Below, piece by piece: positions 29,045-42,446 of a stretch of 64,000 nt of DNA. Made by a program: the position numbers and the translations under genes. The stretch covers positions 1 to 64,000 of the forward strand of contig NZ_JAHLPU010000070.1 of NCBI RefSeq assembly GCF_018918045.1, read 5' to 3'. How positions within the stretch are numbered: the stretch's first letter is position 1; every line of letters begins with the position of its first letter. The notes beneath the pieces are model-generated. The model had not been told where the DNA came from. It saw only the letters and a list, made by a program, of their open reading frames with translations, and made no database searches. The DNA is from Pseudoflavonifractor sp. MSJ-30 (GTDB taxonomy: Bacteria; Bacillota; Clostridia; Oscillospirales; Oscillospiraceae).

Positions 29045-29404
29045 TCAGTCCTTCTGCTCGATAAACGCGCGGATATCGCTGCTGAGAGCCTTTACGTTGT
29101 CCTCGCCGATGTAAATCATGTGGCCGGAGGGATAGCCCTTCAGGGTGACCCGGTCCATGGGCAGCCCGGCGTGATCCAGCATGTAGTGGATGATGCCAAT
29201 GTGGGTGGCGGTGTCAAAGTATCCGTTGGCGAAGAAGACCCGCAGGCCGTGGGTGCGGTACATGGCGCTGCGCAGCTGCTCGCCGGTGGTGCCCATGGGG
29301 GCTTCCCGGTTCCAGCGGTCCTTCTTGGTAAACAGATCGTACATACAGGCGGAAGGAACATTCGCTCCCACCAGAGCCGGGAGGCGGTGCGCCATGACCA
29401 TTTT
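29045..29404 (-). pseudogene. C-terminal fragment of an S10 family serine carboxypeptidase-like gene
   Basis: About 115 residues are readable: ANGYFDTATHIGIIHYMLDH and YPSGHMIYIGEDN are the Asp and His regions of the S10 catalytic triad, so only the last quarter of a roughly 480-residue enzyme remains. The part with the nucleophile serine is missing. Homology stops near 29404, where unrelated, structured-looking sequence begins. The break is next to the degraded area upstream of spoVT, suggesting deletion or insertion associated with mobile DNA. Confidence 0.65.
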
Positions 29405-29621
29405 ATGCGAGCGACAACCACGGGTCTCAAATGCCGGATAGCACCCGGCAAGGCGACGACGGTGGGGGCAGGACAATGATACTTCTCGAAAGAGCTGGGC
29501 GGAAGCGCAGAGGTGAAACTCCCACGAAACCGATTTGCTGTCGGGCATCAGATGAATCCAGAGCGCACGGAAGTGGGGTCAAATAGGTGCGCAAGAATCT
29601 AAATTTTGAAAGGAAAATCAT
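29405..29621. other. Unassigned sequence between the broken peptidase and a spoVT-like fragment
   Basis: GC-rich sequence with several imperfect stems (for example AGCACCCGGC and nearby purine-rich arms). It has no convincing ORF. It vaguely recalls the start of a group II intron, but no domain V or reverse transcriptase is present. Confidence 0.35.
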
Positions 29622-29708
29622 ATGAAAGGGACAGGCATTGTATGCCATGTAGACGACCTGGGTAGGGTCATAATTCCCAAGGAAATCAGACGAACCCTGA
29701 GGCTCTGA
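29622..29708 (+). pseudogene. Truncated second copy of the SpoVT/AbrB DNA-binding head
   Basis: A 28-codon frame, KGTGIVCHVDDLGRVIIPKE then IRRTLRL and a stop, is almost identical to the first 28 residues of the interrupted spoVT at 30259. It has its own AAAGGA-type ribosome-binding site. Identity ends just before the spoVT attachment core. It could be a relic of an earlier insertion or duplication at the same target, or a mini AbrB-type protein. Confidence 0.65.
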
Positions 29709-29748
29709 AAGAGGTTATTCCCGGAATCTGTCAGGTGTTCCGCAAAAA

Positions 29749-29785
29749 CCACGCCCATCCCGGCCATGAAACGGGATGGGCGTGG
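29749..29785 (+). terminator. CCACGCCCATC hairpin, copy 1
   Basis: CCACGCCCATCCCG/CGGGATGGGCGTGG, 14-bp stem. A diverged copy lies at 32400-32436, inside the integrative element. Confidence 0.5.
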
Positions 29786-30258
29786 TGCTGTGTGTAGTGG
29801 GTGGAAAAGCAAGCGATTTTTGCTGCTTTTAATCGTTATAATCTCGATAATCCTCCTGTATTTGTTTTTTGGTTTCCTTTGCACATCTGTATTATAAATC
29901 TTTCTTTCACAAGGGAAAAGGACCATCGGAGCATAATAGGATACGTTATTTTGCTCCCATCTCATCCTTGCCTACATCCGGCGGAGGCTTACCCCCGGCA
30001 TTGCTGCGGCACTTCCAATCAGCGCACAGGCAAAGGCGGCTGCTACATAACTATACCCCACCGGTTTCCTCTTACAATGGTTTTCTTGTTCGTTTACCAT
30101 GATTATGTGAAAACGGCAACGATTATTTGAATCCAGGGCGGCTATTTCTCCTAATGTCCCCTTTCTCTTTTCCATCTTCCCATACATAATTCCCCTTTTC
30201 CTGCAAATACTGCTACCGGTAAAAACGCGCTTTAACGCGCTTCAAAGGAGAAGAGACT
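29786..30258. other. Region upstream of spoVT, no intact gene
   Basis: Low-GC sequence with the 37-bp repeat shared with 32855-32891 and a tandem AACGCGCTT motif directly before the spoVT ribosome-binding site. A forespore-type promoter is expected for spoVT but none could be assigned with confidence. Confidence 0.4.
30093..30129. repeat. 37-bp repeat, copy outside the element
   Basis: TTTACCATGATTATG...GATTATTTG; the copy at 32855-32891, inside the element, differs at two positions. Confidence 0.6.
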
Positions 30259-30432
30259 ATGAAAGCAACAGGCATTGTACGCCGTGTGGATGACCTGGGG
30301 AGGATCGTGATCCCAAAGGAGATCAGACGAACCCTGAGAATCCGGGAGGGTGACCCGTTGCAGACATCATTGACACAGTGGGAGAAATACTGTTTTTCTA
30401 TGTTGGATTTAGCCAAAAGACGGGGGTGGTAG
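30259..30432 (+). pseudogene. spoVT: spoVT 5' part, interrupted by the integrative element
   Basis: The first 30 residues (KATGIVRRVDDLGRIVIPKE, IRRTLRIRE) are the AbrB-like DNA-binding head of stage V sporulation protein T. From codon 31 the frame enters the element: GDPL is shared by both junctions, then 23 residues foreign to SpoVT (ending LAKRRGW) run to a stop. The remaining 150 codons are found at 41994-42446 in the same frame and strand; joined, they give a 180-residue protein, the normal SpoVT length (about 178). AAAGGAG lies 9 bases before the ATG. In the integrated state only a 57-residue head can be made, so the regulator should be non-functional until excision. Confidence 0.92.
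30349..30356. other. Left attachment core (attL)
   Basis: GGTGACCC, codons 31-33 of spoVT. The same 8 bp in the same frame occur at 41994-42001. Upstream bases are spoVT, downstream bases belong to the element. Confidence 0.85.
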
Positions 30433-30584
30433 TTGTACATAGTGACGGATGTGAGAGGCGGAACCGTGGGTATTTGGGAGGGGCATCTCTGGTATTTGCC
30501 AACCATTGGAGCCAATCATGCCAGTCGCTGGAATTTCAAAATACGGTCAGAGCGCGGAATAGAAAAGTGTTCATGTTGTATGTG

Positions 30585-30635
30585 TTGCACGCGTGCAAGT
30601 TAATGCTTGACAAGCTTGCACGCGTGTTATAATAT
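30585..30635 (+). promoter_or_regulatory. Promoter and GCACGCGTG operators of the AlbA-type gene
   Basis: A perfect palindrome TTGCACGCGTGCAA (30585-30598) precedes TTGACA (30607-30612). A second half-to-full site CTTGCACGCGTG fills the spacer before the -10 (TATAAT or TAATAT at 30628-30635). Repressor binding at the second site would block RNA polymerase directly. Confidence 0.75.
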
Positions 30636-30663
30636 GTAGCAAATAACAGTTGGAGGCATTCCT

Positions 30664-32304
30664 ATGAAGATGACTTTGCCGGAACGTGAAACAATGGAGA
30701 TAGAATTTAAAAGCGATGTTAAAAAACTTAGTGATTCCGATCTTGTTGATGCGGTTGTGGCGTTTGCCAATACCAATGGAGGCAGCTTGTATCTTGGCAT
30801 TGAGGATAATGGTTCTGTGACAGGTTTGAACGAACAGCATAAAGATATTACACAGCTTGCCGCATATATTGCAAACCGTACAGTACCACCAGTTTCTGTA
30901 AAGGCTGAGATACTTGGCTCGGAACCGCCTGTCCTGTTGATTCAGGTGCCCAAAAGCAGAAGTATCGTTGCAGCTTCCAATGGCAAGATTCAGCGCAGAC
31001 GTTTGAAGGCGGATGGAACACCGGAAAATGTTCCTATGTATCCTTACGAAATATCTACACGACTGAGCGAGCTTTCCTTGCTTGATTTTTCTGCACAGCC
31101 AGTACCCGGTGCAAAGTATACAGATATCGACTCGCTGGAAAGGGAAAGGCTGCGCAAAATCATACTTGCTTACAATGGTGAAAAGAATCTACTTGAGCTT
31201 TCCGATGAGGAACTGGATAAAGCGCTGCAATTCGTTGTGACGACTGCGGACCAGTTGGTTCCCACATATACTGGACTTCTCTTACTGGGGAAAGCGGAAA
31301 AAATCAGAGAGTATATGCCCACTGCGGAATCTGCATTTATTATGATGCGTGGGACGGATGTAACTACAAACGAGTCGTTCTTTCTACCATTGTTGGCTGC
31401 TATCGAAAAAATAACGGATTTTATATCTGCACGCAATACAAGTGAAGAAATGGAAATGGGAATGTTCCGAATTTCAATTCCGGAATTTGACCCGAGAGCG
31501 GTTCGAGAAGCGGTTGTAAACGCATTCGTTCACCGAGATTATACACAGCTTGGACGTGTGCTGGTCAAACTTGATGCAGATGGACTGTCGGTGAGTAACC
31601 CCGGCGGTTTTATCGAGGGTGTAACATATCAGAATATCCTGACAGTCGAACCACATGGCAGAAATCCGGTTCTTGCAGATGCTCTGAAACGAATAGGTCT
31701 GGCGGAGCGCTCTGGGCGTGGTGTGGACAGAATTTTTGAAGGTTCCCTTTTGTATGGGCGGGATGTTCCGGATTACTCGGAAAGTACCTCTAGGACTGTC
31801 AAACTCTTTATCCCTCGTGGAGTGCCGGATAAGCGCCTTGTGGCATTGATTTCTGAGGAGCAAAAGCGCACTGGCTCCCCCCTTCCGCTTAATTCTTTAC
31901 TTGTTCTGAATGTTTTGAAAAATAACCACAGAATGTCTTTGGCTGACATGAGCCATGAATGTGCAATTCCTGAGTCCAAGTTGAAAACTACGTTGGAACG
32001 CCTTACGGAATCCGGCCTTATTGATGCAATGGGAAGTGGACGTGGCAGAGCTTATGTGCTAAGTGCCAAGGCATATAAGGACCCGATTCAGCATGTTCGG
32101 CAAACGGATATTGATGCAGTTCGTTACAAGGAACTTGTAATAACACTTGCTCGTAGGAAAGAATATATCACCCGTAGAGATGTGATTGAGCTACTTCATG
32201 TATCGCCTTCTCAAGCCTATCGACTGCTGAAAAAGCTGGTAGAAGAAGGCTTGCTTACTTTAGACGGTACGACGAGCGCAGCAAAATACACCTTAAAAAA
32301 GTAA
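30664..32304 (+). CDS. AlbA_2/Schlafen-type ATP-binding transcriptional regulator
   Basis: This 546-residue protein has an N-terminal AlbA_2 domain (about 1-130: ETMEIEFKSDV, AFANTNGGSLYLGIEDNG), a GHKL-type ATPase-like C-terminal segment (about 270-390: AVREAVVNAFVHRDY with the N-box, and GLAERSGRGVDRIF) and two winged-helix parts (about 405-470 and 490-540). Such proteins are common on mobile elements, where they act as regulators or defence factors. GGAGGC precedes the ATG. The same rare palindrome flanks the gene on both sides, so it probably represses its own transcription. First gene inside the left end of the element. Confidence 0.85.
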   Translation: MKMTLPERETMEIEFKSDVKKLSDSDLVDAVVAFANTNGGSLYLGIEDNGSVTGLNEQHKDITQLAAYIANRTVPPVSVKAEILGSEPPVLLIQVPKSRSIVAASNGKIQRRRLKADGTPENVPMYPYEISTRLSELSLLDFSAQPVPGAKYTDIDSLERERLRKIILAYNGEKNLLELSDEELDKALQFVVTTADQLVPTYTGLLLLGKAEKIREYMPTAESAFIMMRGTDVTTNESFFLPLLAAIEKITDFISARNTSEEMEMGMFRISIPEFDPRAVREAVVNAFVHRDYTQLGRVLVKLDADGLSVSNPGGFIEGVTYQNILTVEPHGRNPVLADALKRIGLAERSGRGVDRIFEGSLLYGRDVPDYSESTSRTVKLFIPRGVPDKRLVALISEEQKRTGSPLPLNSLLVLNVLKNNHRMSLADMSHECAIPESKLKTTLERLTESGLIDAMGSGRGRAYVLSAKAYKDPIQHVRQTDIDAVRYKELVITLARRKEYITRRDVIELLHVSPSQAYRLLKKLVEEGLLTLDGTTSAAKYTLKK

Positions 32305-32309
32305 TCATG

Positions 32310-32347
32310 TTGCACGCAAACTTGCACGCGTGTAAGTTTGCGTGCAA
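32310..32347. promoter_or_regulatory. 38-bp palindrome after the AlbA-type gene
   Basis: Begins TTGCACGCAAACTTGCACGC and is self-complementary over 38 bp except for one mismatched pair. Its centre matches the operators at 30585-30626. No T-run follows, so it is more likely a binding site than a simple terminator. Confidence 0.7.
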
Positions 32348-32399
32348 GTTTACGCAGGTGCGTAGATCAGATACGGGTGAAAAGTGTTTTGAATTGCAA

Positions 32400-32436
32400 C
32401 CACGCCCATCTTGGCACGAAACCAGGATGGGCGTGG
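32400..32436. terminator. CCACGCCCATC hairpin, copy 2
   Basis: CCACGCCCATC/GATGGGCGTGG with inner TTGG/CCAG pairing, a diverged copy of the hairpin at 29749-29785 outside the element. Probably terminates the AlbA-type transcript. Nothing else is seen up to 32525. Confidence 0.5.
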
Positions 32437-32525
32437 TACTTTGTAAAAAATCATACTTATTTGACTTTGCGCATAACATTACTCTCTAACGGTTGTCTTT
32501 GGCTGCCACCTGCAAGAGATTCCGC

Positions 32526-32820
32526 TTAAGAGGCTTCATACAGCAGCACCTCGTCATCAGAAATAGAATTCAAAAACTTGCTGTCCAGGCTCCCGGTGGG
32601 AATCAAATCCACAGGGATTCCCAACGCATCTTCCAGATCAGCGGCCAGACCGCCAAGCTGCAAGCCCACGGATGGCTCCTTTATCAATGCGCAGATCAAT
32701 GTCACTGTCCTGATCTGCATCCCCTCTGGCGTAGGAGCCGAACAGATAAATCCGGTCTGCCCCATATTGGGACGCCAGGGCCGCAACGATTTCCTTGATT
32801 TCATCCACAGTATATCGCAT
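32526..32820 (-). pseudogene. Minimal nucleotidyltransferase (MNT) gene, frameshifted
   Basis: Two overlapping frames together read a complete MNT of about 97 residues. The first holds RYTVDEIKEIVAALASQYGA and the catalytic motif GSYARGDADQDSDIDL; it ends 13 codons after a slip near 32670. The second continues as LGGLAADLEDALGIPVDLIP to DDEVLLYEAS. One extra base accounts for the break. MNT proteins pair with HEPN toxins; here no HEPN gene adjoins. A truncated paralogue lies at 34185-34340. Confidence 0.75.
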
Positions 32821-32854
32821 ATCCGTTCCTCCTTACCATGTATTCTACTACTAT

Positions 32855-32891
32855 TTTACCATGATTATGCGAAAACGGCAATGATTATTTG
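32855..32891. repeat. 37-bp repeat, copy inside the element
   Basis: Matches 30093-30129 at 35 of 37 positions; located upstream of the MNT pseudogene. Confidence 0.6.
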
Positions 32892-32982
32892 GAGCGTATG
32901 TATTGTTTTCTTCCATGCCGCCCCTCAGCTTATCGCAGCTTGCCCAGAAGGAGCTGTACAGTTCATTTTTTATAGCCATTCC

Positions 32983-33020
32983 AGCGGATGAAGTGCTATC
33001 AGCGTACAAATCGTTCCTCC
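32983..33020. repeat. 38-bp direct repeat, copy 1
   Basis: GCGGATGAAGTGCTATCAGC continuing to TTCCTCCT; a second copy with few changes lies at 35250-35287 on the other side of the defence genes. Weaker similarity continues for about 60 bases. The rest of 32821-33067 is non-coding. Confidence 0.6.
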
Positions 33021-33067
33021 TGTCATACATTCCTATGCAGCACGCGGATCAGGAAATAACGACAGCA

Positions 33068-33097
33068 CAGCCCACCGGTCAACTGATCGGTGGGCTG
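33068..33097 (-). terminator. Terminator of the Mrr-like gene
   Basis: CAGCCCACCG/CGGTGGGCTG, a perfect 10-bp stem 28 bases past the stop codon. Confidence 0.6.
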
Positions 33098-33124
33098 CAA
33101 TATTTCGCTTCTGCCGTCTTAACG

Positions 33125-34117
33125 CTACAGTTTTTCCTCAGGGACAGGAATATACACCATTCTCAGCGGAATCATCCTCCGATATTTTTCACTTAGCTGA
33201 CCGTAATATTTCAAAATCAAATCCACAAGTTCCGTACCGTTGATCCCCCGAATGATCGGCGTGCTTTCCAGGTATTTTACGGCATTCTTTGTGTAGTTGG
33301 ACAGCGTAACGAATAAACCGTAATCCCCCTCACGCATGGCCCCTTTCAAGGACTGAATGGTGGATTCCTTAATGTCGCTGTCCTGGCTTTTCACCTGGAC
33401 AAGAATACGGGGAGGCAGTTCGTCTTTGTATGCGGTGATGTCTATGCCGCTGTCGCCGCCCTGGGGGGATACGGTACAGCGGTATCCCATTGCACGCAGA
33501 AGCTCCGCAACAAATTCTTCCAGCGCATATCCTTTCAGCTGCTTGCTCAGCTCTTTCAGGACGAAATCTCTGGTGGCTTCGACAATATCTTCTGCGGTAG
33601 CCGCCACGGTTTCGTCCGGTTCTGCCAAGACTAACGAAGGCTTGAATCCTTTATCCAAAGCCTGCATGTATTCGTCTGCGTAGTTCTTGAGCAAAAAGAA
33701 AGACAGTGCCGAACCGACCTCATACAGTGCGCCTTGGGAGAACGCAGTCCGGGGCAAGTGTTTCAGCCACTTTACTTTTCTCTGCTGCACATACGGGGCG
33801 GCTTCGGGGTTATAAATAAAATCGCTCTCAACGACACCAATGTTGATTTTTCGGTCAGCCTTAGACGGAAACACCACATAGTCACCGATTTTCACTTCTA
33901 CAGCAAACCGATACAGCATACCGGCACTGGTAGCAATGGCCCCCTTTTTGCTGTCGGGATATGTGTCTATATAGTGCGCTTTATAGGCTTCCCGATTTGG
34001 CTCCAACTTGCCGCAATCTCCAAAGTCCTGCCAGCCAATAGCAATGACATCATTGTGCAGGAACAGGGAATCATCCGTTGTGTGGATGCCCCATATTTTC
34101 TTTTCTTCATTGGCCAT
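33125..34117 (-). CDS. Mrr-like restriction endonuclease
   Basis: The 330-residue protein has an N-terminal EVE/PUA-like reader region (about 1-110: IWGIHTTDDSLFLHNDVIAI, GDYVVFPSK) and a C-terminal PD-(D/E)xK nuclease of the Mrr family (about 205-310), with GYRCTVSPQGGDSGIDITAY and the VQVKSQ catalytic lysine. Proteins with this layout recognise modified DNA and cut it, and often serve in phage defence. The start is the ATG following AGGAG by 9 bases; nine codons upstream in the same frame are not needed. Flanked by broken MNT genes inside the integrative element. Confidence 0.82.
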   Translation of the reverse strand: MANEEKKIWGIHTTDDSLFLHNDVIAIGWQDFGDCGKLEPNREAYKAHYIDTYPDSKKGAIATSAGMLYRFAVEVKIGDYVVFPSKADRKINIGVVESDFIYNPEAAPYVQQRKVKWLKHLPRTAFSQGALYEVGSALSFFLLKNYADEYMQALDKGFKPSLVLAEPDETVAATAEDIVEATRDFVLKELSKQLKGYALEEFVAELLRAMGYRCTVSPQGGDSGIDITAYKDELPPRILVQVKSQDSDIKESTIQSLKGAMREGDYGLFVTLSNYTKNAVKYLESTPIIRGINGTELVDLILKYYGQLSEKYRRMIPLRMVYIPVPEEKL

Positions 34118-34184
34118 TATGTACACTCCTATCAAATCGAACACTATTTTTCATGCCAAAGCCTTGCTGGATTCCTATACTATT

Positions 34185-34340
34185 TCATTGCAGCTTCATA
34201 CACATTTTAGATAGCGCAATGTCGCTGCTTTTGTCTGCATCCCCTCTGGCGTAGGAGCCGAACAGATAAATACGGTCAGCCCCATATTTGGCCGCCAAGG
34301 CCGCAACGGTTTCCTTAATTTCAACTACAGTATATCGCAT
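34185..34340 (-). pseudogene. Truncated minimal nucleotidyltransferase, second copy
   Basis: 51 codons: RYTVVEIKETVAALAAKYGA and GSYARGDADKSSDIAL are nearly identical to the MNT pseudogene at 32526-32820, then the sequence departs and stops. Only the catalytic half remains. Together the two copies show a duplication that brackets the Mrr-like gene. Confidence 0.7.
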
Positions 34341-34346
34341 ATCTAC

Positions 34347-34463
34347 CTACTTCAGCCACTCATCAATGACCTGCACTGCATGCCTTATACGTGCTATATA
34401 TGATTCATATGGTACGTCCAGCAAATCCAATAGAATTCTTCGGTACAGCAGGCTAAACTTCAT
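34347..34463 (-). CDS. 38-residue ORF overlapping the AbiEi gene
   Basis: A short frame starting at an ATGA overlap with the AbiEi stop codon: KFSLLYRRILLDLLDVPYES then IRHAVQVIDEWLK. The position is where the toxin partner (AbiEii, or a HEPN/MNT pair) would be expected. It resembles no AbiEii part that I recognise and may be a remnant or a small partner. Confidence 0.35.
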   Translation of the reverse strand: MKFSLLYRRILLDLLDVPYESYIARIRHAVQVIDEWLK

Positions 34464-35080
34464 GGAATATCGAACGCAATCCTTCCCCGAAAAATGACGT
34501 GGCTGATTTTTCTTGATATGTTTGACACCCGCATCTTTTTTGCGTATGTGTTCAGCTTGTTCAAATCTTTCCTGGGACTGGCCGCATACAGTTTCAGGGC
34601 CGCAAGGAATGTCTCCGTCCCCATTTTGTTGCGGCTTCGGACACAATCGCAGATCGTTCGTTCCAGATCGTATACAGGGACACTATTTCCGGCAGGAGTT
34701 TTCAGAACCGTTTTTCCAAGGGTAAACAGCTCCGGTTTGATGTAGTACACCTTGCATTCTGATTTGATCGCGGCGGAGGGAATGCAACCGGATGGGGCCG
34801 TTACCGTATGTTCAAAGGGTGTCCGGTTGGAAATGCCATGCAGATACAAAGCCGTTTCGTGGGAGAAGATAATATTCTCAGAGCGTTTACTGATAGACAG
34901 CAGCTCATCCGGCAGATCATCAGGAAGAATGTACTGCCCTTTTACAATACGCTGGATCTGGTTTTCTTTGCAAAGCTTATAGAGCATCGCTTTTGAGATC
35001 CCATACTGCGCTGCAACCTTCGTTTGAATGATCCCTCCATGCTCCTTTGCAATGGCTGCCAGTTCCATCATGTAGTCCAT
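34460..35080 (-). CDS. AbiEi family antitoxin-like transcriptional regulator
   Basis: This 206-residue protein matches the type IV antitoxin AbiEi: an N-terminal winged helix (about 8-50: GGIIQTKVAAQYGISKAMLY, KLCKENQIQRIVKGQYILPD) followed by the AbiEi C-terminal domain with IIFSHETALYLHGISNRTP (about 69-87) and VYDLERTICDCVRSR (about 136-150). It normally represses the abiE operon and offsets the AbiEii nucleotidyltransferase toxin; here no intact AbiEii follows, only a 38-codon ORF and an MNT fragment. The promoter upstream on the minus strand is intact. Confidence 0.85.
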   Translation of the reverse strand: MDYMMELAAIAKEHGGIIQTKVAAQYGISKAMLYKLCKENQIQRIVKGQYILPDDLPDELLSISKRSENIIFSHETALYLHGISNRTPFEHTVTAPSGCIPSAAIKSECKVYYIKPELFTLGKTVLKTPAGNSVPVYDLERTICDCVRSRNKMGTETFLAALKLYAASPRKDLNKLNTYAKKMRVSNISRKISHVIFRGRIAFDIP

Positions 35081-35111
35081 TTCCTTACCTCACTTACAGC
35101 AATCTGATAAT

Positions 35112-35140
35112 ACTATAGCCAGAATTATGATAAAAGTCAA
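35112..35140 (-). promoter_or_regulatory. Promoter of the AbiEi gene
   Basis: On the minus strand: TTGACT, 17-bp spacer, TATAGT, 32 bases before the start codon. Confidence 0.7.
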
Positions 35141-35249
35141 CCACGCGCTGATCCTGTCTTATAATTCTTCATATATTATTATGACCATAGTCGATACATA
35201 GTGTCTGATGTGATTTCCTATAGAACTTTTTGCCATTTCATTTATTCGA

Positions 35250-35287
35250 GCGGGTGAAGTACTATCAGCATACAAATCGTTCCTCCT
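35250..35287. repeat. 38-bp direct repeat, copy 2
   Basis: Matches 32983-33020 with a few changes; the pair brackets the Mrr-like and AbiEi genes. Confidence 0.6.
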
Positions 35288-35421
35288 ATTATTCACTCCG
35301 ATGCAATACTCAGATAATCTCTGGTATGCAAATAACGATTGATTCCTCGGTAGCAATTCCCAATTGCGCAGCCGATGCCCGAAAGGCAGCGTTACTCAGA
35401 ACATTATGTTCACCGGGGATT

Positions 35422-35701
35422 GGGGCAGGGCCTCAACAAGCAGAAACCAGGCATTTCCGATAGAGTGGAAATACCTGGTTTTGTGCCTTTGTATATACGA
35501 AGGCATTGCTTGCGACTTTTGTCGCAGCGAGATTTATGGTCACTATTGCAGCTTAGATAAGAGCCTCTTTACAAACCCATTTTCAAGCTGTAAGGGGCCA
35601 AATGAATAATAGCAAGCAATGCATCTGTAATACAGATGCGCAAAATCCCCCCGTCCCCTTCTACGGAACGAGTGGGTTTCTGCTTGCTGAGGCTCCGCCC
35701 C
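35422..35701. repeat. 27-bp imperfect inverted repeat pair
   Basis: Left arm 35422-35448 (GGGGCAGGGCCTCAACAAGC...) and right arm 35675-35701 (...GCTTGCTGAGGCTCCGCCCC) are inverted copies with three mismatches, 226 bp apart. Confidence 0.6.
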
Positions 35702-35806
35702 AAGCCCTGATAATCGCAGTCTGTCCGTCTGCGGCTGCGCGATTTTCAATCGCTTTTGATTTTGCACGAGCAAGATTTATTTTCGAAAATATTTTTGAAT
35801 TAGATG

Positions 35807-35835
35807 TTGACATTGCGTTTTCTATGTGTTATACT
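35807..35835 (+). promoter_or_regulatory. Sigma-A promoter of the replication module or leader RNA
   Basis: TTGACA, 17-bp spacer, TATACT, about 310 bases before the primase gene. Confidence 0.8.
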
Positions 35836-35841
35836 CCTGAT

Positions 35842-36046
35842 ATACGAACAAACTTTCTCAATCAACTTGCGATAACAACTTCATATTTTTGTTGACACGT
35901 TTTGCATAAAGTTCAACCGCCGGACACGCTGGATTGATTCCAGTATAGAAGCCGGATAAGAGCCTGCATCCACCAGCTTTGGTGAGAACGAGGACCATCG
36001 AGAGGACATGGCAAACAGCTTTCACGCTGTTGCCATGTCCTTTTTT
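35842..36046 (+). ncRNA. Candidate leader or small RNA ending in a strong terminator
   Basis: From the strong promoter to a perfect 15-bp hairpin (GGACATGGCAAACAGC with one bulge / GCTGTTGCCATGTCC, 36004-36040) followed by six T. No ORF with an SD lies inside. It would be a transcript of about 205 nt that stops before the primase gene, hence an attenuator or regulatory RNA of the element. Confidence 0.45.
36004..36046 (+). terminator. Rho-independent terminator upstream of the primase gene
   Basis: Long stem with 6-nt loop and TTTTTT tail; the primase start lies 102 bases further on. Confidence 0.85.
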
Positions 36047-36147
36047 GCGTCCTTTGGAAGTTTGTTCCCCTGCACCTTGAAAAGTGAATACACGGGGATA
36101 CCTGGTAAATGGGTATCCTGTGACAAATTCAACTGAAGGAGGGAAAC

Positions 36148-36765
36148 ATGAGTTACTATCCAGCATTGAAACAAAGATTGACCTGCCGGGAGGTGGCTCC
36201 CCGCTATGGCTTAAAAGTGAATGCCTCCGGGATGGCGTTATGTCCCTTCCACGATGAACACTCGCCCAGCCTGAAGCTCAGCCGGGGCTTTCACTGTTTC
36301 GGCTGCGGCGCGCAGGGAGACGTTATTACATTTGTGTCCCGGCTCTTTGGAATTCCACCGGGGGAAGCGGCACAAAAGCTGTCCGCAGATTTTGGGATTC
36401 CTGCGGGCAACCACTCCCGAGACCCACCATCTGCCCGGACAGAAATGGAAACATGGGTTTCCTACGCGAAGGAAATTCTTCACGGCTACTACGATTTACT
36501 GATTGACTGGAAGCAAAGGTATTGCCCAAAGGCAGCGGACACGATTTGGCATCCGCTGTTTATCGAAGCGCTTCAAAGGCAGGCCGACATCCGCCGGTTG
36601 ATTTTTGAATTGGAGTTCGGAACTACGGAAGAAGTGAAAACCGTTTACGAGCATTACAGAAAGATGGTGATAGAGATCGATGAACGAATCCACAGCAATG
36701 ACACAGCAGGAGATATTTCTGAATCTCAAAAAGAACGGCAAGGACAATGTTCTGCAAACCATTGA
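36148..36765 (+). CDS. CHC2 zinc-finger primase-like protein
   Basis: A 205-residue protein whose first 80 residues are a DnaG-type CHC2 zinc finger: CPFHDEHSPS (C32, H35) and FHCFGCGAQGD (C51, C54). The TOPRIM polymerase domain of DnaG is absent; the rest is helical. On mobile elements such short primase-like proteins are found with VapE-type helicases and begin element replication. GAAGGAGGG precedes the ATG by 6 bases. Its 3' end overlaps the helicase gene by 86 bases in another frame. Confidence 0.82.
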   Translation: MSYYPALKQRLTCREVAPRYGLKVNASGMALCPFHDEHSPSLKLSRGFHCFGCGAQGDVITFVSRLFGIPPGEAAQKLSADFGIPAGNHSRDPPSARTEMETWVSYAKEILHGYYDLLIDWKQRYCPKAADTIWHPLFIEALQRQADIRRLIFELEFGTTEEVKTVYEHYRKMVIEIDERIHSNDTAGDISESQKERQGQCSANH

Positions 36766-37966
36766 CAACTGCATTTTCGTTCTGGAGCATGACGAGAACT
36801 TGAGGGGAACCATTCGATTCAACGTGCTGACCGAGCGGGACTGCATCGTGGGCGATGTTGGCTGGGAGCGGACAGGCAGTGCCATCACGGAACGGGACAT
36901 GAGCTACCTTAAACTGTATTTTGAGCGGCACTACCATCTGAACCATGAGAAGGCATTGCGGGATGCCATCCGCATTGTTGCCAATGAAAACCGCTTCCAT
37001 TCCATTCAGGAATATCTTCAAGCGCTCCGCTGGGACGGGCAGCTCCGCATTCCACACGCCTTGCACAGATTCCTGGGGGCAGAAGAATGCCAGTTCAACA
37101 CCGAGTGCCTGAAAATTTTCATGCTGGGTGCCATCAGTCGGGTGTTCCACCCCGGCATCAAATTTGAACTGATGCTGTGTCTGGTGGGCAGTCAGGGGGC
37201 GGGCAAGTCCAGCTTCTTCCGCCTGCTGGCTGTGCGGGATGAATGGTTCTCCGATGATCTGAAAAAGATCGATGATGACAATGTATATAGGGAAATGCAG
37301 GGACACTGGATCATCGAAATGTCGGAGATGCTGGCCACTGCCAGTGCGAAAAGTATTGAGGAGATCCGCAGCTTCATCAGCCGCCAGAAGGAAACCTATA
37401 AGGTGCCCTACGACATCCACCCGGAGGATCGGCCGAGGCAGTGCGTATTTGCCGGCACTTCCAATTCGCTGGATTTCCTGCCGTTGGACAGAGCGGGCAA
37501 CCGTCGTTTCCTGCCGGTCATGGCAGAGCCGGATAAGGCGGAGGTACACATTCTGGAAAACGAAACAGTGTCCCGCGCCTACATCGACCAGATGTGGGCA
37601 GAGGCCATGACTATTTACCGCAGCGGGGATTTCCGGCTGTCTCTGCCGAAAGAGTTGGAGGAGGAAGCCCGGAACCGTCAGAAGGCATTCATGCCCGAGG
37701 ATACCACGAGCGGGCGTATCCAGTGTTTTCTGGATTCCTTCGGAAGTGATGATGTATGCTCCCGGCAAATTTTTGAATTGGGCCTGGGGCGCATGGGTGA
37801 GCCAAAGCAATGGGAGATCCGGGAGATCAACGACATTATGAACCACACCATCGAGGGCTGGGAGCCGGGTACAACAAAACGGATTCCCGGATACGGTATC
37901 CAGCGCACTTGGCACAGAAAGACTGGGGTAGGAGTGGAGCAGCTGGAACTGCCGGAAGGTTGGTAA
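36680..37966 (+). CDS. VapE family replicative helicase/ATPase
   Basis: The 428-residue product matches virulence-associated protein E: a DNA-binding N-terminal region, the P-loop VGSQGAGKSSFFRLL (about 170-184), a Walker B-like HWIIEMSEMLA (about 212-222) and ETYKVPYDIHPEDRPRQCVF (about 236-255), with GTSNSLDFLPLDRAGNRRFL as the sensor region. VapE is the superfamily 3-like helicase used in place of a RepA protein in satellites and staphylococcal pathogenicity islands. Starts inside the primase gene; no SD is obvious, so coupling is likely. Confidence 0.87.
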   Translation: MNESTAMTQQEIFLNLKKNGKDNVLQTIDNCIFVLEHDENLRGTIRFNVLTERDCIVGDVGWERTGSAITERDMSYLKLYFERHYHLNHEKALRDAIRIVANENRFHSIQEYLQALRWDGQLRIPHALHRFLGAEECQFNTECLKIFMLGAISRVFHPGIKFELMLCLVGSQGAGKSSFFRLLAVRDEWFSDDLKKIDDDNVYREMQGHWIIEMSEMLATASAKSIEEIRSFISRQKETYKVPYDIHPEDRPRQCVFAGTSNSLDFLPLDRAGNRRFLPVMAEPDKAEVHILENETVSRAYIDQMWAEAMTIYRSGDFRLSLPKELEEEARNRQKAFMPEDTTSGRIQCFLDSFGSDDVCSRQIFELGLGRMGEPKQWEIREINDIMNHTIEGWEPGTTKRIPGYGIQRTWHRKTGVGVEQLELPEGW

Positions 37967-38497
37967 GCAGGTATCCTCTATCCCAGTAAACAGCCGGTAA
38001 ACAAGCCGGTCAACATATTTTCAAAACCGTCAAATGCCGAAAGAAGGGATACGCCTTAAATTTACTTTGGATTCCTTACTCTTTTCCTTTTAGAGAAGAT
38101 GTAAACAGAGAATTGCAAAACAAGAAACGAGGGTGGAAAAAGTCAATGCCAACCGTACAAAGGTTTTCTTGCGTCCGTTTACACCAGCCAGTCAACGGAC
38201 AGAACTGCAATATCAGCCAAAGGGAAAACAAGGGGTTTGGAAAACAGCGAAAATGTTTTCTCTTTCCTGTGAGAAATGCGCCAACAAGCGATGAAGCAAA
38301 GAGTGAATCCAATTCGCAGTATGGGAAAGGACTGCACCGGCTGACGAATTGGTTCGTAAATTGCTGTATTCGCCGGGTCAACCTGTGACCCGGACATGGC
38401 GAATAAGAAAATGGAGGGGTTTTCAGAATCAAAGGAAATTTACTGGACAGCAGAGTCACCGCATAGAAAACAGAATTTGATTCAGGAGGAAACGAAC
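37967..38497. other. Intergenic region downstream of vapE, possible origin
   Basis: Begins with a tandem AAACAGCCGGT / AAACAAGCCGGT motif (37985-38010) and AT-rich sequence after it. A 91-codon frame at 38113-38388 has no SD and a Cys/Arg-rich, low-quality product, so I do not call it. The position after primase and helicase is where satellite origins often lie. Confidence 0.35.
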
Positions 38498-38734
38498 GTG
38501 AAAAAGGAAAGAAAAATCAATAGGGTCCGCTGCGACATTCAGTCCCACATCATTGCCGCGGGTTATACTCAGAAGGAAGCGGTGGAAGCCTGTTCCGCCG
38601 AGTATGGATGGAGTGACAGCGATTCCAATTTTTCTGCCAAGCTGAGCGACCAAACCCTGCGCTACCGGGAAGCGTTGGAGCTTGCCAATGTGCTGGGCTA
38701 TGAGATCGTCTGGCAGAAGCGACGGGAAGCTTGA
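38498..38734 (+). CDS. Small helix-turn-helix protein of the element
   Basis: A 78-residue protein with an XRE-like helical core: QSHIIAAGYTQKEAVEACSA (about 15-34), then FSAKLSDQTLRYREALELAN and VLGYEIVWQKR. Similar small proteins of unknown role occur on Firmicutes integrative elements; DNA binding is likely. It starts with GTG, chosen because AGGAGG stands 7 bases before; a longer frame lacks such a site. Confidence 0.6.
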   Translation: MKKERKINRVRCDIQSHIIAAGYTQKEAVEACSAEYGWSDSDSNFSAKLSDQTLRYREALELANVLGYEIVWQKRREA

Positions 38735-38850
38735 CAGGGAACAGGTTTACAGACCAATGCGTGCAGGATTCCCTGCTGTAGAAAGGAGCACGCCTATTCG
38801 CATAAAAAAAGGAAACTCTGGAAATCATTTGGAGAAAAGGGGGCAGTAAC

Positions 38851-39114
38851 ATGGAAATTATTCAGGATGATGCAAAGAAGCTGGTACAGGTGTGGCTGAG
38901 CCGGAAGGAGAGTGGGGACGAGGCTCTGCAAAGCCGGCTGAAGCCCATGTATGCCCAGTGGAAGCAGCAGAAATATATGGTGGCGGTATTTCACTCCGGG
39001 CAGGAGGATTTGAAGGAGAATACCATGGCACTGCTGGCGTATAACAAACGGCGCAGCGCGGAACTGGCGGTGCAGCGGGAGAAGAAGCGGCGGACGACAA
39101 GCTTGGAACGCTGA
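38851..39114 (+). CDS. Hypothetical protein of the integrative element
   Basis: An 87-residue, highly charged, helical protein (KLVQVWLSRKESGDEALQSR; ends REKKRRTTSLER). It has no recognised domain. The phrasing of the middle part (MYAQWKQQKYMVAVFHSGQE) resembles small proteins often found beside recombinase genes on Clostridia elements, possibly accessory to replication or transfer. GGAG lies about 20 bases upstream; the SD is weak. Confidence 0.5.
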   Translation: MEIIQDDAKKLVQVWLSRKESGDEALQSRLKPMYAQWKQQKYMVAVFHSGQEDLKENTMALLAYNKRRSAELAVQREKKRRTTSLER

Positions 39115-39163
39115 ATTCTGGGGCGGAGGGAAGAAATTTCCTCTGCCCATTTTCAATTTGTCC

Positions 39164-39192
39164 TTGCAAAGTACAGGAATATGATGTACAAT
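39164..39192 (+). promoter_or_regulatory. Promoter of the RhuM-recombinase genes
   Basis: TTGCAA, 17-bp spacer, TACAAT, 82 bases before the RhuM start; it overlaps the start of the longest open frame, supporting the later start. Confidence 0.65.
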
Positions 39193-39273
39193 ATTATCTG
39201 TAATTACATCATTCAGCAAAAGACCACAATGTACTGCAAATACACTGATACAACGGATACTGGAGGAAAAGAA

Positions 39274-40290
39274 ATGGGAAACGAAATTGCAAATCAGGGA
39301 GAAATTCTGCTGTACAATGACGAGGGCGAGAAGCAATATGTTAGTGTGATATTTGCGGAGGAAACCTTCTGGCTAAGTCAGAATGGTATGGCAGAGCTGT
39401 TTGACTGTACCCCAGAAAATATCATTCAGCATTTGAAGAACATATACGCCGAAGAAGAATTGTCCATCAACGCAACTGCTAAGAAATTCTTAGTGGTTCG
39501 CAGAGAGGGCAACCGCAATGTGCAGCGCAGCATTGACCACTACAACCTCGATGCCATCATCGCCGTAGGCTACCGTGTCAACTCCAAAAAGGCCACCCGG
39601 TTCCGCCAGTGGGCGACGAAAACGCTGAAAGAGTACATCCAGAAGGGCTTTGTTCTCAACGATGAGATGATGAAAAACGGCCGCCCCTTTGGCAAGGATT
39701 ACTTTGATGAGCTGCTGGAACGCATCCGGGAGATTCGTGCCAGTGAGCGGCGGGCCTATCAGAAAATCGCGGATGTCTTTGAACAGTGCAGCTATAACTA
39801 CGACAAAAACAGCGAGACAACGAAGGCCTTCTATGCCTTTGTTCAGAACAAGCTGCACTATGCCGTCACCGGCAAGACGGCGGCGGAGCTGCTTTCCCAG
39901 CGGGCTACTCTGGACAGCCCCACCATGGGTCTGACCACCTGGAAGGGGGCGCCGGACGGGAAAATTCTGAAAAGCGACACGCTGGTGGCGAAGAATTACC
40001 TGAATCAGAAGGAGCTTTCTCGGCTGAACCGTCTGGTGACCATGTTCATCGACTATGCCGAGCTGATGGCCGAGGACGAGCAGCTCATGTCCATGCAGGA
40101 CTGGCTGAAGGAGACGGACCGTTTTCTAACCAACAACCGCCGCCAGGTACTGGATGGCAAAGGCCACATTTCCCGGGAGGCGGCGGTGAAAAAGGTCAGC
40201 GGGATTTATGAGGAATTCCGCAAACGGCAGGACGCAGACTATATTTCCGAATTTGACCGCCAGACCGAAAAATACCTCAAGGGAGAATAA
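39274..40290 (+). CDS. RhuM family protein
   Basis: This 338-residue protein matches the Virulence_RhuM family: EETFWLSQNGMAELFDCTPE (about 30-49), HLKNIYAEEEL, HYNLDAIIAVGYRVNSKKAT (about 89-108) and RQWATKTLKEYIQKGFVLND (about 111-130). Family members occur on pathogenicity and defence islands; their biochemical role is not settled, though a DNA-binding N-terminus similar to Bro/KilA types is likely. TGGAGGAAAAG precedes the ATG. It ends two bases before the recombinase start, so the two are one operon. Confidence 0.85.
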   Translation: MGNEIANQGEILLYNDEGEKQYVSVIFAEETFWLSQNGMAELFDCTPENIIQHLKNIYAEEELSINATAKKFLVVRREGNRNVQRSIDHYNLDAIIAVGYRVNSKKATRFRQWATKTLKEYIQKGFVLNDEMMKNGRPFGKDYFDELLERIREIRASERRAYQKIADVFEQCSYNYDKNSETTKAFYAFVQNKLHYAVTGKTAAELLSQRATLDSPTMGLTTWKGAPDGKILKSDTLVAKNYLNQKELSRLNRLVTMFIDYAELMAEDEQLMSMQDWLKETDRFLTNNRRQVLDGKGHISREAAVKKVSGIYEEFRKRQDADYISEFDRQTEKYLKGE

Positions 40291-40292
40291 CC

Positions 40293-42446
40293 ATGACCGA
40301 AACCTTTGACATTGCGGGCTACTGCCGCATCTCCGTAGATGAGGAGCTGGACCGGGACAACGTTTCCATTGAAAACCAAAAGGCCATCATCCGGGATTTT
40401 GTAAACCGCCGTTTTCCGGGAAGCAGCCTGACCTTTTATGAGGATCGGGATCGTTCCGGCTATACCTTTGAGCAGCGGGAGGGCTACCAGGCCATGCGAA
40501 AGGGGCTGATCCGGCATCAGTATGACATTCTGGTGGTGAAGGATTTTTCCCGATTCTCCCGGCGAAATTCCCGGGGGCTGGTGGAATTGGAGGATCTGCG
40601 AGATGCAGGCGTTCGCATCATTTCCGTTGGGGACAACATCGATTTTCCCAACGATGACGACTGGCTGAAAATCCAGTTTCAATTCCTCATCAACGAAATG
40701 CCTGTTACCGACACCAGCAAGAAGGTGAAAAACGTCATCCGGCGGCGGCAGGCAGACGGGAAATGGCTGTGCGCCGCCCCCTACGGCTATATCATTAACA
40801 GGCAGAAGGAATTTGAGATCGTCCCCACGGAAGCGGAGATCGTCCGGCAGATTTTTGACCTGTACAACAACCAGGGCTGGGGTTACAAGAAAATCGCAAA
40901 TTACCTGACAGAGCAGGGCATCCCCACTCCCCGGATGTCGGAGCAGATGCGCAAAGAGGCGGCGGGGGAACCCACCAGCCGGAAAACCAAGGCCGCCTGG
41001 GCCATCGTCACGGTGCAGGGGATTTTAGACAATGATTTTTATATCGGCACTTTCCGCCAGGCCAAGTACACCCGGGCCAAGATCAACGGCAAGGATGTGA
41101 AACGGGACGAGGAGGAGCATATCGTCATTGAGAACCACCACCAGCCCATTATCGACTACCGCACCTTTGCCACCACCCGGGCTCTCCGGGAGAAGCGTTC
41201 CACCGCCAATTATCGGGGCGTGAAGAAGTACGACAATGTGTACTCCGGCTTCCTGTTCTGCGGGGACTGCGGCAGCCCCATGTTTGCCATGAGCCGCAGG
41301 GATTTGAGCGCCGCCTACACCTGCGGCACCTACCACCGCCGGGGCCGTTCCGGGTGCAGCTCCCACCACATCCGGGTGGACAAGCTGGACGAGCTGCTGA
41401 AAATCTATGTGCGGCGGGTCATGGAGCATTCCCATACCATGCTGGAAGAACTGAACGCCGAACTGGCACGGCAGGATTCCGATGTGGTGGAAACAGAGCA
41501 ATCCGCCGACCATCTGGCTCAGGTCATGGAGGAGCTGCGGGAGGAGCTGAAGGCCACCAAGCGGCAGCGCATCCGGGATATGGTGAAGCACCCGGATCAG
41601 GAGGAGCTTCTGGCGGAAACCTATGACGAGCTGGAAGCGGACCTGCAAAAGAAAATCGAGGGGCTGGATCACCAGATCGGCATGCTCTCAGACAAGCGGA
41701 ACACCATCATTCAGGCAGGGCGTGCCGCCAAAACCGCCATGGAGGTATTCGGGGACATTCTTTCCAAGGAAACGCTGGAACGAAACGATTTAGAGCTGCT
41801 GATAGAGCGCATCGACGTATTTGAGGATCGGCTGGAGATCCGGCTCCACAGCGATGTGGACACCCTGCTCCACGTCAACCAGGGAGACATTGCCGTAAAT
41901 TTTAATTCAGGCACGGAAAATAGCGAAAATACACTGATCCAGTCCTCTAAAAACCACGAGGACAAGGTTTTCCGTGTCAATGTTATCAGTGACGGTGACC
42001 CTCTGGAGATTTATACGGAGAAGGACGGCGGGGTGATATTTCGGAAGTACTCCCCCATGGGGGACTTGCAGGAGTTCGCCGCCCAGATGTGCGAATCCAT
42101 TTCCACGGCCACGGGGCATATTGCGGCCATTGCGGACCGGGATGGGATCATCGCGCTGCATGGAGCGCCCCGGAAGGAGCTTCTGGACAAGCCCAATTCG
42201 CCGGAGCTGGAAAAACTTATGGAGCAGCGGAAGAACTATCTGTACAAAAGTGGAGAGAGTCCCATTCAGGCCGCCCAGGGGGAGGAGAGGTACCACCTGG
42301 GCGCGGCAAGCCCCATTCTATCTCAGGGGGATCTGATGGGCAGCGTGTTGCTGCTCCTTGGGGAGAATGACCAGCCTCTGCTGCCCAGCGACCAGAACCT
42401 GACCCGGGCTGTGGCGGGCTTTCTGGGAAAGCAGATGGAAAGTTGA
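40293..42446 (+). CDS. Large serine recombinase fused by integration to the SpoVT C-terminal domain
   Basis: 717 residues in the integrated state. The catalytic domain (about 5-155) has Ser14 in YCRISVDEE and the DFSRFSRR motif; a recombinase domain follows (about 165-290: APYGYIINRQKEFEIVPTEA), then a zinc ribbon (about 321-357: CGDCGSPMF, GCSSHH) and a coiled coil (about 375-475). From residue 568 the sequence is not recombinase but SpoVT (GDPLEIYTEKDGGVIFRKYS). In the excised circle the frame would instead run through the left end and finish ...GDPLQTSLTQWEKY to LAKRRGW, a 594-residue enzyme. It should catalyse integration at, and excision from, spoVT. Confidence 0.9.
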   Translation: MTETFDIAGYCRISVDEELDRDNVSIENQKAIIRDFVNRRFPGSSLTFYEDRDRSGYTFEQREGYQAMRKGLIRHQYDILVVKDFSRFSRRNSRGLVELEDLRDAGVRIISVGDNIDFPNDDDWLKIQFQFLINEMPVTDTSKKVKNVIRRRQADGKWLCAAPYGYIINRQKEFEIVPTEAEIVRQIFDLYNNQGWGYKKIANYLTEQGIPTPRMSEQMRKEAAGEPTSRKTKAAWAIVTVQGILDNDFYIGTFRQAKYTRAKINGKDVKRDEEEHIVIENHHQPIIDYRTFATTRALREKRSTANYRGVKKYDNVYSGFLFCGDCGSPMFAMSRRDLSAAYTCGTYHRRGRSGCSSHHIRVDKLDELLKIYVRRVMEHSHTMLEELNAELARQDSDVVETEQSADHLAQVMEELREELKATKRQRIRDMVKHPDQEELLAETYDELEADLQKKIEGLDHQIGMLSDKRNTIIQAGRAAKTAMEVFGDILSKETLERNDLELLIERIDVFEDRLEIRLHSDVDTLLHVNQGDIAVNFNSGTENSENTLIQSSKNHEDKVFRVNVISDGDPLEIYTEKDGGVIFRKYSPMGDLQEFAAQMCESISTATGHIAAIADRDGIIALHGAPRKELLDKPNSPELEKLMEQRKNYLYKSGESPIQAAQGEERYHLGAASPILSQGDLMGSVLLLLGENDQPLLPSDQNLTRAVAGFLGKQMES
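41994..42001. other. Right attachment core (attR)
   Basis: GGTGACCC, identical to the left core and in the same codon phase; bases before it belong to the recombinase, bases after it to spoVT. Confidence 0.85.
41994..42446 (+). pseudogene. spoVT: spoVT 3' part (GAF-like sensor domain)
   Basis: 150 codons encode the part of SpoVT after its DNA-binding head: the swapped-hairpin end (GDPLEIYTEKDGGVIFRKYS), linker (PMGDLQEFAAQMCESISTAT) and the GAF domain (GHIAAIADRDGIIALHGAPR ... LTRAVAGFLGKQMES). It has no start of its own and is translated as the recombinase tail. The frame is intact, with no stops or shifts, so the gene is split but not decayed. Confidence 0.9.

Follow-up and report, generated by a model that had tools for sequence, protein, structure and literature searches.

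Is a sporulation gene that lies in two halves, on either side of a mobile element, lost to its host, or can the host put it together again? The question is raised by a 64,000-nt stretch of DNA from Pseudoflavonifractor sp. MSJ-30 (GCF_018918045.1, contig NZ_JAHLPU010000070.1, positions 1 to 64,000; hereafter the window), in which the gene spoVT is interrupted by an element that encodes a large serine recombinase (LSR). Our comparisons place this element in a family of mobile elements that integrate into spoVT, and we think it probable, with moderate confidence, that these are excised in the developing forespore. As read from the DNA, integration splits spoVT and fuses the recombinase in frame to the SpoVT_C domain, and its precise reversal would restore an intact SpoVT.

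The split gene, its recombinase fusion and their recurrence

An earlier note on this DNA had described spoVT as split by 11.65 kb at an identical 8-bp core, with halves that join into an intact 180-residue SpoVT, and both statements are borne out by our coordinates (Table 1): the attL and attR cores lie 11,645 bp apart, and scripted joining of the flanks yields a 180-residue SpoVT without stops. The two parts of the protein, the N-terminal AbrB-like domain and SpoVT_C, are both present at a distance from each other and make one whole protein only if joined; the window element is a case of a sporulation gene split into halves that join in frame at a short common core. A second complete spoVT, which by the same note would have spoken against excision, did not turn up in profile searches of the host's own genome (94% complete assembly, 75 contigs), where the sole SpoVT_C match is the split gene of the window and the sole passing AbrB-type N-terminus is that at 30277-30360.

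The earlier note also had the element ending in a serine recombinase gene. The recombinase is there, with Resolvase, Recombinase and zinc-ribbon domains that all score over the Pfam cut-offs, but its frame passes through the core into spoVT, so that 40293-42446 is a single 717-aa open reading frame (ORF) composed of the LSR (567 aa) and SpoVT_C. In the circular form, reconstructed by script, the LSR would instead terminate in the tail GDPLQTSLTQWEKYCFSMLDLAKRRGW at a total of 594 aa.

Besides its own site-specific recombinase, the element carries attachment (att) sites of the serine-recombinase type. Its inner arms (30355-30376 and 41974-41995) form an inverted repeat, and in the attP rebuilt from both arms 18 of 28 positions pair around the core centre, a value as high being seen in 0 of 500 shuffles. 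Among the eight elements of the genus with both halves on one contig, the attP is imperfectly palindromic around the step between G and A of the core in every case, with 15-21 of 28 positions paired; for seven of the elements none of 500 shuffles reached this pairing, and for the eighth (genome G020) 4 of 500 did. Element sizes in the genus set range from 6.8 to 30.1 kb. Because of the inverted-repeat arms, an attP palindrome that shuffles do not match and the recurrence of the same junction in many species, we regard it as confirmed, on comparison of sequences, that the split junction is real and beyond chance.

That recurrence is extensive. In collections that hold one genome per species, most of them drafts or metagenome-assembled genomes, a close LSR (E <= 1e-100) was found in 21 of the 136 genomes of the genus, 20 at full length and one interrupted by a contig end, in addition to three fragment matches, and all 21 have the LSR fused in frame to SpoVT_C at the identical residue. 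A scan of named genomes, in which the best 80 of 423 relatives were assessed, gave fusion at this residue in 79 of 80 loci, the sole exception (L187) having a different end and lying near a contig end. Hosts among these best 80 are mostly Oscillospiraceae and other Clostridia, many of animal-gut origin. Isolates with fused relatives belong to Butyricicoccus, Agathobaculum, Oscillibacter, Flavonifractor and Pseudoflavonifractor, and cultured carriers include Butyricicoccus pullicaecorum DSM 23266, Agathobaculum butyriciproducens DSM 100391, Pseudoflavonifractor capillosus An386a and Oscillibacter valericigenes An411. In An386a and An411 a single contig holds the two spoVT halves. The fusion reaches a stop at the usual end of SpoVT in 98 of the 103 loci scored (86 after removal of duplicates); the remaining five are three loci cut by a contig end, L215, which is fused but was missed by the pattern, and L187, which is not fused.

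SpoVT_C fusion was also seen in two of seven LSR relatives on viral contigs. A collection of phage sequences holds two human faecal scaffolds with LSR relatives, MT839487.1 (L328, 74%) and MT836658.1 (L329, 46%), and since the recombinase of the latter is fused to SpoVT_C, such elements appear to occur in the human gut as well. Partial recombinase copies were noticed elsewhere in two genomes (G128 and G138; L055, L056 and L057), two of the three with TAG stops.

The other half of the gene is usually found too. We found a spoVT N half carrying the element-encoded tail in 17 of the 21 LSR-bearing genomes of the genus (missing in G018, G083, G155 and G026) and in 27 of 30 named genomes checked out of the 80. 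It lies on the LSR contig, on the same strand and in the correct order, in 8 of the 17 and in 15 of the 27 (at 8-81 kb in the latter), and the remaining N halves are on contigs other than that of the LSR, apart from the one in G181, which shares the contig in the wrong order. SpoVT_C is unfused in 21 of 26 sister genomes with a SpoVT_C match, which supplies the intact locus in relatives that the earlier note had looked to, and in five other fused genomes of the genus the single SpoVT_C is the fused copy. The excisable element proposed in that note is well supported by the anatomy of attP, attL and attR, by recurrence at one residue in many species and by the unfused spoVT of sister genomes.

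LSR identities and SpoVT_C identities are nearly uncorrelated (rho 0.11, 3655 pairs): the window and G128, for example, share 98% in the LSR and 80% in SpoVT_C, while G020 and G062 share 98% in SpoVT_C and 54% in the LSR. The elements thus move among species and strike the same codon repeatedly.

In many genomes of the genus a whole spoVT is preceded by tailed, truncated spoVT N halves, either one alone or several in a row. Rows can form since every unit closes with a fresh promoter and N half; G113 (L108) has four of them before its intact gene. Such an array was seen on one contig in 16 of 18 genomes, with 0.7-12 kb per unit, although these 18 had been picked for having both tailed and intact N starts, and the 16 intact genes therefore cannot count as independent evidence. 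In G150, G098 and G092 the cassettes hold one small gene apiece. A more telling comparison comes from the genus-wide search for N halves, which reached down to weak matches: 24 genomes have a tailed N half and no close LSR, and 18 of these also have an intact spoVT start, as against 0 of the 21 genomes with the LSR. Genomes that have a recombinase capable of rejoining spoVT thus carry the gene split, and those that have none carry it mostly whole. The window itself has a decayed second N half, starting 637 bp upstream of the good one, which fits a cassette relic and is probably what remains of an older cassette at the same site.

As an observation in its own right, spoVT looks like a hotspot of cassette arrays, with rows of units (promoter plus spoVT N half, tail, cargo) that end in an intact spoVT and have an attL-like unit site; examples are L108 (G113), L113, L114, L119-L125 and others. 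Such rows are reminiscent of integron or staphylococcal cassette chromosome (SCC) accretion arrays.

The constancy of the fusion could have another cause, namely that the LSR-SpoVT_C protein is itself a functional product in which the SpoVT_C domain gained by integration acts as a regulator of the recombinase or provides SpoVT function in trans. Its frame does run to the usual SpoVT stop in nearly all of the loci scored. In addition, the median ratio of nonsynonymous to synonymous substitution (dN/dS) in the genus is 0.132 for fused SpoVT_C (21 sequences, 111 usable pairs) versus 0.164 for intact SpoVT_C (24 sequences, 92 pairs), and constraint on the fused domain, judged in this way, is no weaker than in intact genes. 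In the circle the LSR would have a short tail instead; when LSR-type tails are compared pairwise, codons 10-23 differ mostly at third positions, which account for 790 of 1597 differences. At the same time, with frame and site fixed, an in-frame join needs no selection, and the fused protein is without the N-terminal DNA-binding half of SpoVT. A functional fusion would also leave the conserved N halves and their forespore promoters unexplained, and we hold it to be improbable.

The companion gene, its promoter and the proposed timing of excision

If the element is excised, what could set the time? Upstream of the LSR and on the same strand, 69 of 82 loci have a gene of about 87 aa, which in the window lies 1.2 kb before the LSR with a RhuM-family gene in between. 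It was absent from 13 of the 82 loci, eight of which have <1.4 kb of upstream DNA; the other five (L176, L193, L199, L212 and L229) have >8 kb and still no such gene. The neighbourhood of an LSR is company often kept by genes for recombination directionality factors (RDFs), and we consider the 87-aa protein a candidate RDF. It has no NCBIfam, PHROGs or PDB match and nothing over the cut-off in Pfam; its AlphaFold model has a mean pLDDT of 83 and a pTM of 0.49.

The promoter of this gene carries much of the argument. We used the forespore (sigma-F/G-type) pattern GHATAA-N16..18-NANANTR, whose final form was fixed after viewing the upstreams of spoIIR and of the 87-aa gene, with shuffles, LSR upstreams and random windows serving as controls; gene starts were placed by a simple ribosome-site rule (LSR starts were taken from the match), and upstreams >70% alike were removed beforehand (75 to 55; for spoIIR the threshold was 85%, 30 to 22). 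An exact site precedes the 87-aa gene in 36 of the 55 non-redundant upstreams, compared with 0.25 in shuffles (at most 2), and with up to one mismatch the count is 49 of 55, compared with 5.5 (at most 11). Butyricicoccus pullicaecorum DSM 23266 and Agathobaculum butyriciproducens DSM 100391 are among the cultured carriers whose 87-aa gene has an exact site. An earlier, looser pattern had given 30 of 55 with up to one mismatch versus 3.4 in shuffles. Exact sites were also found upstream of spoIIR, a sigma-F gene, in the genus (17/22), of intact spoVT (10/19) and of spoVT N halves with a tail, those of elements and those of cassettes being pooled (19/34). By comparison, LSR upstreams had one exact site in 61 and random windows one in 160; with one mismatch allowed, 12 of the 61 LSR upstreams had a site, against 7.2 (at most 12) in shuffles. 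A sigma-A pattern with up to two mismatches was found before the 87-aa gene in 0 of 55. By these counts the gene of about 87 aa accompanies the LSR, and most of the members tested have before it a predicted forespore-type promoter that is absent from LSR upstreams.

Forespore expression of the 87-aa gene could conceivably serve some other purpose, such as maintenance of the element or a factor packaged into the spore, with no developmental excision at all. The protein matches no known RDF in sequence or fold, as this explanation would have it; against it stands the place of the gene, which in most loci precedes the LSR in the same orientation, as RDF genes often do, and we rate the explanation as very improbable.

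Taken together with the split gene, the promoter points to the following sequence of events, in which RDF activity, timing, excision and return of the element are what we infer. In the vegetative cell, the LSR would be made without a sporulation promoter and the element would sit integrated in spoVT. Sigma-F activity in the forespore would then lead to synthesis of the 87-aa candidate RDF, LSR and candidate RDF would excise the element there, and the rebuilt spoVT would be transcribed from its own sigma-F/G-type promoter. Excision in the forespore would be heritable, and the element must therefore go back in after germination, when absence of the RDF would permit attP x attB recombination and the LSR, now with its short tail, would return the circle to spoVT. 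More tentatively, and possible rather than probable, the whole could act as a switch of the spore line: having left the forespore chromosome, the element would be in the spore as a free circle alongside a rebuilt spoVT, it would return to the same codon after germination, and the C-terminus of the LSR, which is SpoVT_C in the integrated state and would be a short tail in the circle, could set the direction of recombination. The window copy has primase-like and helicase genes of its own.

Such a cycle presupposes hosts that sporulate. SpoIVA matches were found in 127 of the 136 genomes of the genus, including all 21 LSR carriers (that of G142 below the curated cut-off), SpoIIR (TIGR02837) in 33 of 41, YlbJ (TIGR02871) in 31 of 41 and small acid-soluble spore proteins in 54 of 61. 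Judging from these genes, spore formation in the genus is likely, not certain.

Several observations weigh against excision in the forespore. The spore protease GPR was found in only 1 of 41 genomes of the genus and not in the host's own, and classical spores are therefore not assured. A pattern search of viral contigs for the joined attP arms gave 0 matches. In G181 (isolate POC01; L265/L266) the N half lies 18.6 kb downstream of the C half, and in G172 (Flavonifractor An306) it is damaged, so that excision cannot rebuild SpoVT in either. Six genomes (G030, G036, G104, G114, G151 and G157) have a tailed N half and neither a close LSR nor, among the N-half matches listed, an intact start; two of them, G030 and G036, also gave no SpoVT_C match, for which gaps or loss would account. 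The window's own 87-aa promoter is imperfect, its best match having two mismatches, and for this element the case for a forespore promoter rests on relatives. The RDF role of the 87-aa protein is deduced solely from place and promoter; of the 69 loci, 38 have the gene at most 350 bp from the LSR and the others at 0.45-6.4 kb, and a comparison of the modelled fold with the PDB gave nothing at E <= 0.001. Over all 86 fused SpoVT_C the median dN/dS reaches 0.425, versus 0.166 for 32 intact ones (mostly of the genus), a difference that may come from saturation in distant pairs. The weak correlation between LSR and SpoVT_C may mean that many insertions are recent and that intact halves reflect perhaps just youth. 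Lastly, forespore excision would be inherited, unlike in the known cases. The earlier note's proposal that developmental excision rebuilds SpoVT thus stands in part: the forespore-type promoter before the candidate RDF gene speaks for it, while the imperfect window promoter and the empty search of viral contigs do not.

With regard to G181, chromosomal-looking genes lie between the fusion and the N half; a rearrangement, a second copy or a circular molecule is conceivable, and no terminal overlap was found. The phage-collection record MT839487.1 was ruled out as evidence for a circle: its sequence ends within the P arm and has no terminal repeat. Four contigs (in G101, G154, G003 and G137; L330, L331, L333 and L335) terminate precisely at the core that follows the spoVT N half, a pattern suggestive of more than one continuation beyond the core in the sampled population, and in G137 two contigs share a 55-nt overlap at the core. 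We dropped the idea that such contigs reflect a mix of excised and integrated alleles, as the next base of G137's own C half misfits the fork.

A rival explanation is an ordinary integrative element that uses spoVT as its attB and knocks the gene out, with excision for transfer only and with hosts that survive because they grow vegetatively or are no longer true spore formers. Frequent and possibly young insertions, as the disagreement of LSR and SpoVT_C identities implies, the lack of GPR in 40 of 41 genomes, the absence of an excised allele from the attP search of viral contigs and a cargo of mobile-island type all agree with a knock-out. On the other hand, it gives no evident reason for a forespore promoter before the integrase's companion gene, both halves are mostly intact and, in the genus, constrained, and the tailed N halves that have no LSR mostly accompany an intact spoVT, which makes the gene seem wanted. 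We consider a plain knock-out rather unlikely, and excision in the forespore the better account.

Gene content, flanks and coordinates

Ten proteins, eight of them inside the element, were searched against Pfam, and the domains found are replication, defence-like and recombinase domains; a PHROGs search with six proteins gave integrase, primase and helicase. No phage structural or packaging genes were found in these searches, which did not take in all of the smaller ORFs. The element also contains a 127-bp direct repeat (32697-32823 and 34217-34343, 88% identity) that, judged by eye, resembles the beginning of a small nucleotidyltransferase-like ORF.

To the left of the split gene, a 47-bp stretch that follows the decayed N half recurs inside the element (29747-29793 and 32398-32444, 79%). 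Directly upstream of the locus, the minus-strand ORF 29045-29548 appears by eye to be the end of a hydrolase gene, broken off near 29450; a Pfam search gave no match for it.

Table 1. Positions of the split spoVT gene, the element and their neighbouring sites in the window.
Feature	Positions	Strand	Remarks
Decayed second copy of spoVT N half	29622..29701	+	84% identity over 80 nt; stop after 28 codons; without core
Forespore-type promoter-like site ahead of spoVT	30184..30212	+	ACATAA-N16-AATACTG; one mismatch to GHATAA-N16..18-NANANTR
spoVT codons 1-30	30259..30348	+	N half of AbrB-like domain
Left-half ORF as it stands	30259..30432	+	57 aa; spoVT N half plus element-encoded tail GDPLQTSLTQWEKYCFSMLDLAKRRGW
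attL core	30349..30356	+	GGTGACCC
P' arm of attP	30357..30376	+	inverted repeat of 41974-41995
Schlafen AlbA_2 / RecG-C-like protein	30664..32304	+	cargo
Mrr-type restriction endonuclease	33125..34144	-	cargo
AbiEi-type antitoxin domain	34460..35080	-	cargo
CHC2 zinc-finger primase-like protein	36148..36765	+	replication module
VapE-like helicase	36680..37966	+	replication module
Degenerate forespore-type promoter-like site upstream of 87-aa gene	38800..38829	+	-35 GCATAA intact, N17, -10 AATCATT with two mismatches; read by eye
87-aa gene, candidate RDF	38851..39114	+	chosen by position and promoter
RhuM-family gene	39181..40290	+	between 87-aa gene and LSR
LSR	40293..41993	+	567 aa before core
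P arm of attP	41974..41993	+	within recombinase coding region
attR core	41994..42001	+	GGTGACCC
spoVT codons 31-180 and stop	41994..42446	+	SpoVT_C domain; in frame with recombinase

Comparison with known systems

The cycle of excision and re-integration that forespore excision of the spoVT element would need is what active lysogeny elements perform, for example the comK prophage of Listeria, which leaves a regulatory gene reversibly and later re-integrates; that element is a phage, and its target is a competence gene, not a sporulation gene. In the open-access literature, covered by titles and abstract openings and with few subscription papers or preprints, we found no description of spoVT interrupted by an element. 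What seems new in this real and widespread family is the forespore target, the forespore-type promoter on the likely switch and the recombinase fused to its target. If our reading holds, this would be the first such element, as far as we found, to act in the future offspring cell. A reversible cycle would be required, in which the element leaves spoVT in the spore and re-enters it at outgrowth, and the family would show how a parasite can occupy an important spore gene of gut bacteria. Its occurrence in cultured relatives makes the reading directly testable, and the family offers an LSR with one conserved target and a candidate RDF.

Among elements of sporulation genes, one of the nearest is skinCd in sigK of Clostridioides difficile (LSR CD1231, RDF CD1234). 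It too is an LSR element in a sporulation gene, and its switch is encoded by a separate gene whose synthesis is cell-type-specific: while the LSR is made constitutively, the timing of excision is set by an RDF of the mother cell (PMC5025042). The differences are that sigK is a mother-cell gene and excision is confined to the terminal mother cell, whereas the spoVT element has a forespore-type target and promoter, and an LSR fused to the gene it splits. With CD1234 in mind, it should be said that the 87-aa protein was compared with family and structure libraries only. The earlier note saw a mirror of skin here, and this is apt for an LSR element that splits a sporulation gene but not for the compartment: skin, SP-beta, vfbin, vrin and gin target mother-cell genes (PMC5025042, PMC5595907, PMC4191935), while in C. 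difficile spoVT is a sigma-F/sigma-G target that encodes a forespore regulator and is required for heat-resistant spores (PMC3789822). A mother-cell target, common to the known cases, is thus not what we find at spoVT, where the promoter is of the forespore type.

SP-beta in spsM of Bacillus subtilis (SprA/SprB) is likewise excised by an LSR when the cell sporulates, and its RDF gene sprB directly follows a sporulation promoter; there, promoter and excision are mother-cell-specific and the prophage is retained in the chromosome of the spore (PMC4191935). SP-beta is moreover a phage, whereas the spoVT element is without structural phage genes in the Pfam and PHROGs searches run. The gin element in gerE of Bacillus cereus ATCC10987 (GirC/GirX) resembles the spoVT element in not being a phage (its size is 28.6 kb), in encoding an additional factor besides a serine recombinase and in having a short core in the gene of a small regulator; it differs in having three recombinases and a mother-cell gene as target, and the available part of that paper reports no fusion (PMC5595907). 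A further case is yin in yabG of Clostridium botulinum, a recently described intervening element in a clostridial sporulation gene; its target is another one, and it is reported from one strain, with no further yabG insertions known to its authors (PMC10747680). Set beside these systems, the spoVT element fits the logic of skin and SP-beta, by analogy, with the compartments swapped.

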